Translations under genes and position numbers: made by a program
The notes under the pieces: generated by a model
Seen by the model: only the letters and a program-made list of their open reading frames with translations
What the model was told of the DNA's origin: nothing
Databases searched by the model: none
Shown: positions 29,180 to 32,518 of the stretch, piece by piece
How the letters are laid out: the number at the start of each line of letters is the position of its first letter
Position numbering within the stretch: position 1 is the stretch's first letter
NCBI RefSeq assembly: GCF_000423865.1
Contig: NZ_AUIU01000014.1
Coordinates: forward strand, 1-64,000
Direction: 5' to 3'
DNA: 64,000 nucleotides
From: Thermodesulfovibrio thiophilus DSM 17215
GTDB taxonomy: Bacteria > Nitrospirota > Thermodesulfovibrionia > Thermodesulfovibrionales > Thermodesulfovibrionaceae

Positions 29180-29208
29180 TTGACAAATTTTTTAAAAGTA
29201 GATAAAAT
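29180..29208 (+). promoter_or_regulatory. sigma-70 promoter of the cydAB operon
   Basis: TTGACA (29180-29185), a 17-base spacer and TAAAAT (29203-29208) make a near-consensus promoter 31 bases before cydA. An inverted repeat GTAGA-n9-TCTAC (29198-29216) spans the -10 box and could be an operator, perhaps for the Rrf2 regulator encoded at the end of the operon. Confidence 0.65.
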
Positions 29209-29238
29209 TAGTCTACAATAAGAATTGAGGAGGGAGGT

Positions 29239-30540
29239 ATGGATACAGTTTTATTAAGCAGGTTGCAGTTTGCCATAACTGCAGGTTTTCATTTTATTTT
29301 TGTTCCATTGACACTTGGGCTGTCTGTGCTTGTGGCTTACATGGAGAGCAAATATCTTGCAACAGGAGATAAGGATTATTTAAGAATGACTAAATTTTGG
29401 GGAAGACTTTTTCTTATTAATTTTGCATTGGGAGTTGTTACCGGTATTACTCTTGAATTTCAGTTCGGAATGAACTGGGCAGAGTATTCTCGGTATGTTG
29501 GTGACATATTTGGTTCTCCTCTTGCAATTGAGGCGACTGTGGCATTCTTTCTTGAATCAACATTTCTTGGAGTCTGGATATTTGGATGGAATCGAATTTC
29601 ACCAAAACTTCATGCCATCTCAATATGGCTTGTTGCACTTGCGACAAATCTTTCAGCATTATGGATTCTGATCGCAAACGGATGGATGCAACATCCTGTA
29701 GGTTATGTAATTAATAATGCAAGAGCTGAAATGGTTGATTTTTGGGCAGTTGTTACGAATCCATATGGTTTGCTAAAGTTTGCGCATACTGTGCTATCTG
29801 GATGGGTAGTTGCAGGATTTTTTATACTCGGTATATCTGCCTATCACTTGTTACGAAAAAGTGAAATTAATTTTTTTAAAAAATCTCTGAAAATCGGTGC
29901 AGTTTTTGCTCTTCTAAGTTCAATATTAGTGGCTGGAGTGGGGCATTTTCATGGACATGAAGTTGCGCATACACAACCAACAAAAATGGCAGCTATGGAG
30001 TCTCTTTGGGAAACAACAAAGGATGCACCAATGTATTTATTGCTTATTCCTGATCCTGCAAATGAGAAAAACTCTGTCGAAGCAATAGGCATTCCTTCAA
30101 TGCTCAGCATTCTTGCAGGACAGAAAGAGGTGAAAGGTTTAAAGGATTTTTCTCCGTCAGAAAGACCTCCTGTAACATTAACATTTATAAGTTTCAGATT
30201 GATGGTGGGACTGGGGTTTCTTTTCATTATTATTTCTTTATGGGCTTTTTTTAAATTTAAAACAGTGGAACACAGTAGAACACTTCTGAGGATTTTACTG
30301 TGGTCAATTCCATTGCCTTATATTGCGGCACAATTTGGATGGATTGTTGCTGAAGTTGGAAGACAGCCATGGATAGTATATGGAATACTGAAAACATCAG
30401 ATGCTGTTTCCAAAGCTGTTACACCAGCACAGGTTGTGGCTTCTCTAATAGGATTCACAATATTTTATGGCGCTCTGGGAATAATTGATATTTATTTACT
30501 GTCAAAGTATGCAAGAAAAGGACCTGAAAAGGAGGTATAA
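29239..30540 (+). CDS. cydA: cytochrome bd ubiquinol oxidase subunit I
   Basis: A 433-residue membrane protein with nine helices that carries haems b558, b595 and d and reduces oxygen with quinol electrons. Haem histidines are in AGFHFIFVPLTLG and in the GHFHGHE/KFAHT region, and the quinol loop is of the short type. The GWIVAEVGRQPW signature is present. GAGGAGGGAGG precedes the ATG. In an otherwise anaerobic-looking gene set it probably serves oxygen protection. It is followed by cydB with an AAAGGAGG site inside its own last codons. Confidence 0.96.
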   Translation: MDTVLLSRLQFAITAGFHFIFVPLTLGLSVLVAYMESKYLATGDKDYLRMTKFWGRLFLINFALGVVTGITLEFQFGMNWAEYSRYVGDIFGSPLAIEATVAFFLESTFLGVWIFGWNRISPKLHAISIWLVALATNLSALWILIANGWMQHPVGYVINNARAEMVDFWAVVTNPYGLLKFAHTVLSGWVVAGFFILGISAYHLLRKSEINFFKKSLKIGAVFALLSSILVAGVGHFHGHEVAHTQPTKMAAMESLWETTKDAPMYLLLIPDPANEKNSVEAIGIPSMLSILAGQKEVKGLKDFSPSERPPVTLTFISFRLMVGLGFLFIIISLWAFFKFKTVEHSRTLLRILLWSIPLPYIAAQFGWIVAEVGRQPWIVYGILKTSDAVSKAVTPAQVVASLIGFTIFYGALGIIDIYLLSKYARKGPEKEV

Positions 30541-30541
30541 G

Positions 30542-31564
30542 ATGGAGTTTCAAATTATATGGTTTATTTTATGGGGATTACTCTGGGCAGTTTATTTTGC
30601 CCTTGATGGATTTGACTTCGGAGCAGGAATTTTATATCCTTTCATATCGAAAAATGAAATGGACAAAAAAGCTGTAATTCATGCAATAGGGCCTATCTGG
30701 AATGGTAATGAGGTCTGGCTTATAACAGCTGGAGGAGCAACTTTTGCTGCGTTTCCCACGACCTATGCTTACATGTTCAGTTATCTTTATACTCCGCTTT
30801 TAATAATTCTTTTTGCATTGATTTTTCGTGGAGTTGCTCTTGAGTTAAGAGGTAAGGCAACCACAGATATGCAGAAAAAATTTTGGGATTTCTGGATATT
30901 TACAGGAAGTTTCATCCCGGCATTGTTATTTGGTGTTGCATTTGGAAATATTTTCATGGGATTGAAATTTGATGATTCAGGATATTACGGAACACTGCTC
31001 AGTCTGCTTAATCCATATGGATTACTTGTTGGTTTGCTTTTTTTATTCACATTTATTGTTCATGGTAGCTTATGGATTTCATTAAGAGTTCCGGATGCTC
31101 TTGCTGAGAAAGGAATGAGAAAGGCTAAAAAATTCTGGTATCTTCAAACAGTATGCGCTGTGTTGTTTTTAATTTTGACTGCACCATTTACAAATTTATA
31201 TGACAATTTTATTAAAATGCCGATCTGGTTTGTTGTTCCTGCTATAGCTGTAGCTTGCCTGCTTTTTACTGGTTTATGCATCAAGAAAAACAAAAATGGT
31301 AAGGCCTTTGTTTTTTCTGCTTTATTTGTTATAAGTCTTGTTTTCAGTGGTATTATAGGGCTTTATCCAAATCTTATTCCATCAGCGATTGATCCGAAAT
31401 ACAGTCTGACAATTTTCAATTCATCATCAAGTCCATATACTCTTAAAATTATGACAATTGTGGTTGCCATATTTGTTCCAATTGTTCTGTTGTATCAGGC
31501 CTGGACATATAAGACATTTATGTACAAAATAACTGAAAAAGAGTTAAAGGAGGAAAGTTATTAA
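30542..31564 (+). CDS. cydB: cytochrome bd ubiquinol oxidase subunit II
   Basis: A 340-residue partner of CydA. The start at ATG 30542 follows AAAGGAGG at ideal spacing and directly abuts the cydA stop. Signature strings are LWAVYFALDGFDFGAGIL, GPIWNGNEVWLITAGGATFA and the repeated helices to the end. Its stop codon overlaps the putative ATT start of the following regulator. Confidence 0.96.
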   Translation: MEFQIIWFILWGLLWAVYFALDGFDFGAGILYPFISKNEMDKKAVIHAIGPIWNGNEVWLITAGGATFAAFPTTYAYMFSYLYTPLLIILFALIFRGVALELRGKATTDMQKKFWDFWIFTGSFIPALLFGVAFGNIFMGLKFDDSGYYGTLLSLLNPYGLLVGLLFLFTFIVHGSLWISLRVPDALAEKGMRKAKKFWYLQTVCAVLFLILTAPFTNLYDNFIKMPIWFVVPAIAVACLLFTGLCIKKNKNGKAFVFSALFVISLVFSGIIGLYPNLIPSAIDPKYSLTIFNSSSSPYTLKIMTIVVAIFVPIVLLYQAWTYKTFMYKITEKELKEESY

Positions 31565-31979
31565 AGGATTACAGATTACAAGAGAAACAGATTATGCCAT
31601 CCGAACTGTCCTTTATCTTTCAGGAAGGGAAAATTATTTTGCAAAAGCAGAAGATATTTCAAAGACTATGGATATTCCCAAAAGCTTTTTAAGAAAGATT
31701 CTAAAACAGCTGGAAAAACAAGGTCTTCTAAGGATCAAAAGGGGAGTAAGTGGTGGTATAACATTAATAAAGAAACCGGAAGAAATAACGCTTTATGATA
31801 CTATTATTGCAGTGGAAAAAAATGTTGCTCTTAACAGATGTGTGGTTAATAAAACAGTTTGTAGATTTTCGTCTCAATGTCCTGTGCATCCTGTATGGTT
31901 TAAGTTAAGGGACGGGTTAATTAAGGCATTAAAGGAGATTAATTTTTCAGGACTAATATCTCAAGGGACTGTCTTATAG
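31560..31979 (+). CDS. Rrf2-family iron-sulfur transcription regulator with probable ATT start
   Basis: The 139-residue product has the complete Rrf2 winged helix: ITRETDYAIRTVLYL, AEDISKTMDIPKSFLRKILK, GLLRIKRGVSGGITL, and the three cluster cysteines in CVVNKTVCRFSSQCPVHPVW. The reading frame has a stop at 31545 and no ATG, GTG or TTG before 31668, which would remove the first helices. ATT at 31560 lies six bases after AGGAGG (31548-31553) and overlaps the cydB stop (ATTAA). I therefore infer an ATT start. Cydab-linked Rrf2 proteins sense redox or iron-sulfur state and may control this operon. Confidence 0.8.
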   Translation: MKGLQITRETDYAIRTVLYLSGRENYFAKAEDISKTMDIPKSFLRKILKQLEKQGLLRIKRGVSGGITLIKKPEEITLYDTIIAVEKNVALNRCVVNKTVCRFSSQCPVHPVWFKLRDGLIKALKEINFSGLISQGTVL

Positions 31980-32518
31980 GCAGTCCCTTCAAAAATTAAA
32001 AGCCAGTTTTTGAAAATATTTACCTTTTCTTCTCCATATTTTGAAAGATCCTGTATGATTTCTTCCACTGTTCTTATTCTTACTGAACCATCTGGCTCCT
32101 TAGAGAAGAATTTATCCGCAAAAGCTATTATTTTTTGTTCCGTAGTAATAGGCATCATATCGAGTGGAGGCAGAGGAAGTTTATTTTTTATAATCTCTTC
32201 CTTTGTTATTCCAACTCCAGTATGCCTTTCACATACAAGAGCATGTTCTGGATAGCCTTCTTTTTCAACTATTTCTCTACCAAGGTAACCATGGGCAATA
32301 TAGGGGAAACTGCCATGACAGTCCAGTTTTGGAGTATCTGTCATAAAAATTCCGATGTCATGTAGCATTGATGCTTCATAAATAAAATTTTTATCAACTT
32401 TAAATTTCTCAGCAACCTGCAATGCTTTTTCAGCAACTTTTTCTGAGTGATTTAATAGTATTTTAAATGCCAGAGTATCTGGATTGTAATATTTTTTTAT
32501 GATGTCCACGGGATTCAT
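31961..32518 (-). CDS. HD-domain phosphohydrolase, function unknown
   Basis: A 185-residue protein with the HDIG form of the HD domain: H24 in NHSEKVAEKAL, HD in ASMLHDIGIFM, further histidines in AHGYLGREIV and CERHTGVGI, and a late D in IIAFADKFFS. These ligate one or two metals for phosphate-ester hydrolysis, often on nucleotides. The substrate is unknown. It converges on the Rrf2 gene with a 19-base overlap. Confidence 0.85.
   Translation of the reverse strand: MNPVDIIKKYYNPDTLAFKILLNHSEKVAEKALQVAEKFKVDKNFIYEASMLHDIGIFMTDTPKLDCHGSFPYIAHGYLGREIVEKEGYPEHALVCERHTGVGITKEEIIKNKLPLPPLDMMPITTEQKIIAFADKFFSKEPDGSVRIRTVEEIIQDLSKYGEEKVNIFKNWLLIFEGTAYKTVP
31963..31989. terminator. stem shared by two convergent gene ends
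   Basis: AAGGGACTG (31963-31971) and CAGTCCCTT (31981-31989) form a nine-base stem around the stop codons of the Rrf2 and HD-domain genes. Neither strand has a strong T run after it. A bidirectional terminator or 3' stabilising stem is likely. Confidence 0.45.

Follow-up and report, generated by a model that had tools for sequence, protein, structure and literature searches.

In other bacteria, IF3 discriminates against AUA and AUU start codons. Such codons have been mapped as the starts of cvfC1, infC and the repressor gene ccpN in Staphylococcus aureus, where they are accompanied by extended Shine-Dalgarno (SD) sequences, and AUU and AUA reporters reach about 10% of the expression of their AUG versions in poor medium (PMC13009471). 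In Streptomyces, sigR starts at GTC and is repressed by IF3, and a canonical start upsets the regulatory balance (PMC5472188). Re-initiation in E. coli is lowered by IF3 overproduction, less so when an SD is present (PMC2268962). Outside infC, few AUU starts are well supported, and fewer still are conserved and belong to transcription regulators. Here we describe an AUU codon that very probably starts rrf2, an Rrf2-family gene of the genus Thermodesulfovibrio. The case is genus-wide, represents a clear change of state and is accompanied by a conserved ATA start of infC in the same genomes. Gene finders limited to ATG, GTG and TTG would miss or truncate rrf2, and among the papers available for searching, none named both Thermodesulfovibrio and Rrf2.

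The window is a 64,000-nucleotide stretch of Thermodesulfovibrio thiophilus DSM 17215 (contig NZ_AUIU01000014.1), and its rrf2 is the sole Rrf2 gene of that genome (Table 1). What is its start codon? The frame is closed by a TAA at 31545-31547 and has its first ATG at 31668. The original prediction had claimed that no ATG, GTG or TTG lies between these points, that a perfect AGGAGG stands six bases before an ATT at 31560, and that this ATT overlaps the cydB stop. All of this is borne out: the frame reads AGG AGG AAA GTT ATT(31560) AAA GGA TTA CAG ATT ACA AGA GAA ACA GAT TAT after the TAA, the number of canonical starts before 31668 is zero, AGGAGG (31548-31553) is separated from the ATT by 6 nt, and the overlap with the cydB stop TAA (31562-31564) amounts to one base, the last T of ATT. 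This ATT is the only near-cognate codon at a normal distance from the SD; the other starts behind AGGAGG in the window have spacings of 4-9 nt, and cydB itself (ATG 30542) has 6 nt.

If initiated at ATT, the Rrf2 N-terminus is MKGLQITRETDYAIR..., and the protein matches the Pfam Rrf2 profile (PF02082) at 8.3e-31 over residues 6-134 and profile positions 1-131. Read from ATG 31668, the match opens at profile position 34 and 26 bits are lost. Consistent with the prediction that the conserved N-terminal helix of the Rrf2 fold is encoded ahead of this ATG, the profile is matched from its first position, and by this test the product has a complete N-terminal winged helix-turn-helix (wHTH) only if it starts at or near ATT 31560.

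Table 1. Features of the cydA-cydB-rrf2 region, with an infC gene of the genus (positions in the window unless otherwise given).
Feature	Position	Strand	Basis or remark
Promoter-like element TTGACA (29180-29185), 17-nt spacer, TAAAAT (29203-29208)	29180..29208	+	sequence; putative function
Operator-like imperfect palindrome GTAGATAAAATTAGTCTAC over -10	29198..29216	.	pattern scan; putative site
cydA, cytochrome bd oxidase subunit I, first operon gene	29239..30540	+	ORF, homologous position in relatives
cydB, cytochrome bd oxidase subunit II	30542..31564	+	Pfam PF02322 6.9e-102
rrf2 SD AAGGAGG, within cydB 3' end	31547..31553	+	near-invariant in 12 orthologues
rrf2, 139-aa Rrf2-family regulator	31560..31979	+	PF02082 8.3e-31, TIGR00738 1.5e-29
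rrf2 initiation codon ATT (very probable)	31560..31562	+	in 12/12 genus orthologues
Codon TTA, place of the relatives' ATG/GTG/TTG start	31569..31571	+	TTA/CTT/CTA/TTG/GTG in genus, not conserved as start
Codons of C94-x6-C101-x5-C107-x2-H110, probable [Fe-S] ligands	31839..31889	+	invariant in 12/12
Inverted repeat AGGGACTG..CAGTCCCTT, likely terminator, operon end between convergent genes	31964..31989	.	sequence
infC of genome G000, outside the window	G000:C12:212133-212387	minus	locus L040; infC loci L031-L046

We compared 12 orthologous loci of the genus, each from a separate assembly (the window is L001); the other eleven proteins are 60-75% identical to that of the window. All 12 genes are located behind cydB, have a GAGG-containing SD and carry ATT, flanked by T and A, at the same site, and none has ATG. 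The original prediction had called for a look at the start codon of relatives and had named two findings that would speak against it, an indel restoring a normal start and relatives with ATG; within the genus the check came out in its favour and both objections are removed. Because ATT is kept in all 12 genus orthologues found, an assembly indel, or any sequencing error, can be excluded as its origin. The spacing between SD and ATT is 6 nt in 11 of the 12 and 3 nt in L012. At the place homologous to the start of distant relatives, ten of the 12 clearly lack a canonical start, and L006 (TTG) and L012 (GTG) have a badly spaced canonical codon there.

In L001, L009, L011 and L012, the frame is closed by an in-frame TAA five codons upstream of ATT. 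From that stop to codon 22 or 36, the first three of these loci contain zero canonical starts, so that a canonical start upstream, inside cydB, is impossible in them; TTGs further upstream in other species were rejected as rrf2 starts because they are not conserved. Codons 5-20 of the genus orthologues differ from those of the window by 69 synonymous and 8 non-synonymous changes and therefore must be read as translated; third positions are the most variable ones between ATT and ATG36 (33 vs 18 and 15). This substitution pattern indicates that the N-terminal codons of rrf2 are under purifying selection, which excludes a pseudogene. A pattern scan of the genus for such ATT sites returned rrf2 in 9 genomes and a few other sites. 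Another AAGGAGG-6-ATTAAGG site lies away from rrf2 at G013:C17:92592-92611 (L055). Genome G003, 99% complete, lacks cydB as well as rrf2, and the two genes co-occur in the genus.

The overlap itself constrains the start. cydB ends in TAT TAA in 11 of the 12 orthologues and in TAT TAG in L011, and its end overlaps ATT in every case; start and stop share one base, which as the first letter of a stop must be T and so makes ATG impossible. ATT is partly dictated by the final Tyr-stop of cydB, and the T of the last TAT appears weakly informative by itself; six of 17 invariant Tyr columns are codon-invariant, the final TAT included. The codons that encode the SD are unusually fixed, and by this measure SD conservation is more than chance: the Lys codon is AAG in 11/11, though AAG makes up 22% of cydB Lys codons, and Glu is encoded by GAG in 12/12, the other four of five Glu columns varying in codon. 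The SD of the genus forms a duplex of about -10.9 kcal/mol with the anti-SD core; the 16S 3' end was sought in five genus genomes and not found, probably because it is masked there. No conserved hairpin hiding the rrf2 SD was found, the SD being mostly unpaired in single-sequence folds, and local RNA structure was set aside as a control of the start. With its stop/start overlap and an SD located inside the upstream gene (12/12), cydB-rrf2 has the layout of a coupled gene pair.

Outside the genus, we examined some 90 rrf2 loci from other genera. All but L156 have an ATG, GTG or TTG start that coincides with the homologous residue or lies no more than a few codons from it; most use ATG, three codons further down than the genus ATT and behind a weak SD. 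At 17 loci rrf2 also follows cydB, and 4-136 nt separate the cydB stop from its ATG. Median SD energies of the ATG-started relatives are -4.9 kcal/mol (operonic) and -4.3 kcal/mol (stand-alone), vs -10.9 kcal/mol in the genus. Because the relatives have ATG with a weak SD and the genus has ATT with a strong one, the genus appears to have shifted its start three codons upstream, pairing a strong SD with a weak codon. In the tree, L012 branches off first within the genus, the other eleven loci forming a group (support 86/84); around position 1501 (genome G011) it has GTG at the ancestral position plus an ATT only 3 nt after AGGAGG, and may be an evolutionary intermediate. The exceptional L156 is an Rrf2 relative in a Clostridiales Family XIII MAG, without ATG, GTG or TTG near its start; it has a CTG 8 nt after AGGAGG and shortly after an in-frame TAG, and perhaps starts at this CTG.

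Does the ATT need a regulatory explanation at all? The main rival is a neutral origin through register lock, in which ATT is the start and has no regulatory meaning, being a by-product of a start that moved back into the register of the cydB stop, which admits NNT codons alone. This account, which we find possible and rather doubtful, draws on the register that bars ATG, on the Tyr-stop of cydB that dictates ATT and on the weakness of the conserved T of TAT as a sign of selection. However, a single, easily made substitution at the ancestral codon would turn TTA into TTG, and L006 is alone in having TTG there, where it lacks an SD at proper spacing; every species retains the strong SD; and the weak SD and ATG of the relatives suggest that elsewhere low output is kept by other means.

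The remaining rivals dispute the start itself. An improbable one places it at TTA 31569 in the ancestral position, at ATT 31575 behind AAGGA, or at the ancestral GTG or TTG in single species: 31569 is the homologous start of the relatives, occupied by GTG in L012 and TTG in L006, and both 31569 and 31575 have a weak SD (-5 to -6 kcal/mol) ahead of them. Against it, codon 31569 is TTA, CTT or CTA in most genus orthologues, 31575 varies between ATT, ATC and ATA as expected for a conserved Ile, and the conserved strong SD lies 15 and 21 nt from the two codons. In L012 alone, rrf2 may start at GTG. Fusion of CydB to Rrf2 by a +1 ribosomal frameshift at the cydB end is more improbable still. rrf2 does lie in the +1 frame, an SD-like sequence precedes it much as one does in prfB, and in 8 of 12 genomes no stop interrupts this frame for about 30 codons back, but the frame is closed five codons upstream in the four loci with the in-frame TAA, leaving a very short stretch for the shift; TAT TAA offers tRNA-Tyr no re-pairing after a +1 shift, the SD spacing differs from that of prfB, a membrane-tethered DNA-binding protein is unlikely, and relatives start rrf2 independently. 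Least probable of all is a decaying gene, or one that makes only a short protein from ATG 31668 (codon 36) or, in some species, from a GTG at codon 16. Such is the call that gene finders limited to canonical starts would be expected to make; it would cost the first helix and the first 33 Rrf2 profile positions, neither codon is conserved in the genus or has an SD (-1.4 kcal/mol at 31668), and purifying selection acts on the codons ahead of 31668. We retain AUU 31560 as the very probable start.

The genus uses another start of this kind. Its infC gene, encoding IF3, begins with ATA in 15 of 15 readable genomes; GGAGGT precedes this codon, and a canonical start is absent. The cells thus keep a second start of the type that IF3 discriminates against.

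What does rrf2 encode? The protein exceeds the Rrf2 superfamily cut-offs (PF02082, 107 bits vs 30; TIGR00738, 102.5 vs 73.3) and scores 63.8 bits against the IscR equivalog, whose cut-off is 207.55. Because it scores below every equivalog cut-off, we file it by sequence as Rrf2 superfamily, IscR-like, and not as IscR. It has the three conserved Cys plus a ligand residue expected of an [Fe-S] Rrf2 protein (C94, C101, C107 and H110), ordered as in IscR and resembling its cluster site, and probably carries an [Fe-S] cluster.

In the interpretation that we favour, rrf2 closes a cydA-cydB-rrf2 operon, in which cydA is named from its protein sequence and its adjacency to cydB, and cydB has AGGAGG upstream of its ATG. 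A TTGAC/GATAAAAT block is kept in 11/11 genus sequences whose upstream region was read. Allowing up to 2 mismatches, a single GTAGATAAAATTAGTCTAC palindrome is present in each of 13 genomes out of 16 in the genus, with one weaker extra site in G000, and in every case in which flanking sequence was read it is located at cydA; shuffle fractions for this pattern are optimistic, as it was chosen by eye from some of the loci later scanned. Several other Nitrospirota carry a similar AGGATAAAATTAnTCC ahead of their stand-alone rrf2 genes, and L110 carries one ahead of cydA. Rrf2 probably represses the cydA promoter via this one operator-like palindrome.

How might the AUU start serve such a regulator? 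We propose that rrf2 is translated from AUU 31560 as the third gene of the operon, by ribosomes that would reach the codon through direct binding to AAGGAGG and/or by being held at, or re-initiating after, the overlapping UAA. The strong SD would offset the weak AUU, at which the initiator tRNA pairs at two of three positions and IF3 would discriminate, and by analogy the output of Rrf2 would stand in a small and roughly constant ratio to that of CydB. The regulator, probably [Fe-S]-bearing, would then repress the cydA promoter via the palindrome over its -10 until O2, NO or iron status alters the cluster and Rrf2 releases the promoter. The whole would form a closed low-dose feedback loop of an operon, its scarce repressor and one operator. 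In this scheme we infer the use of AUU by ribosomes, the coupling, the IF3 sensitivity, the operator binding and the signal. A low-level regulator coupled to cydB, as first suggested, would agree with the 1-nt overlap, with the pairing of a weak start codon and a strong SD, and with the published precedents, and we lean towards low-dose coupled regulation as the purpose of the AUU. More tentatively, a start that shares its last base with the stop and so bars AUG might confine Rrf2 synthesis almost entirely to ribosomes just finishing CydB, with a yield responsive to IF3; if true, an oxidase feedback loop would be tied to the state of the translation machinery.

Among described systems, infC (AUU, AUA or AUC start) resembles rrf2 in a start one base off AUG that is kept across species behind a good SD, but infC regulates itself through IF3, whereas rrf2 encodes a transcription regulator and overlaps an upstream stop. 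Staphylococcal ccpN (AUA) and cvfC1 (AUU) share with rrf2 a regulatory product (putative for cvfC1), a conserved non-AUG start and an extended SD (PMC13009471); they belong to other protein families, and cvfC1 heads its operon, in contrast to rrf2, which ends its own and overlaps a stop. Like rrf2, sigR is an operon regulator with a non-canonical start, by which it is kept scarce, but it is a sigma factor that starts at GTC and for which IF3 repression has been shown experimentally (PMC5472188). As a protein, the rrf2 product resembles IscR, NsrR and RirA in its wHTH and its three Cys with a nearby His, and its PDB matches include IscR; unlike these, it stays below the equivalog cut-offs and is linked to cydAB.
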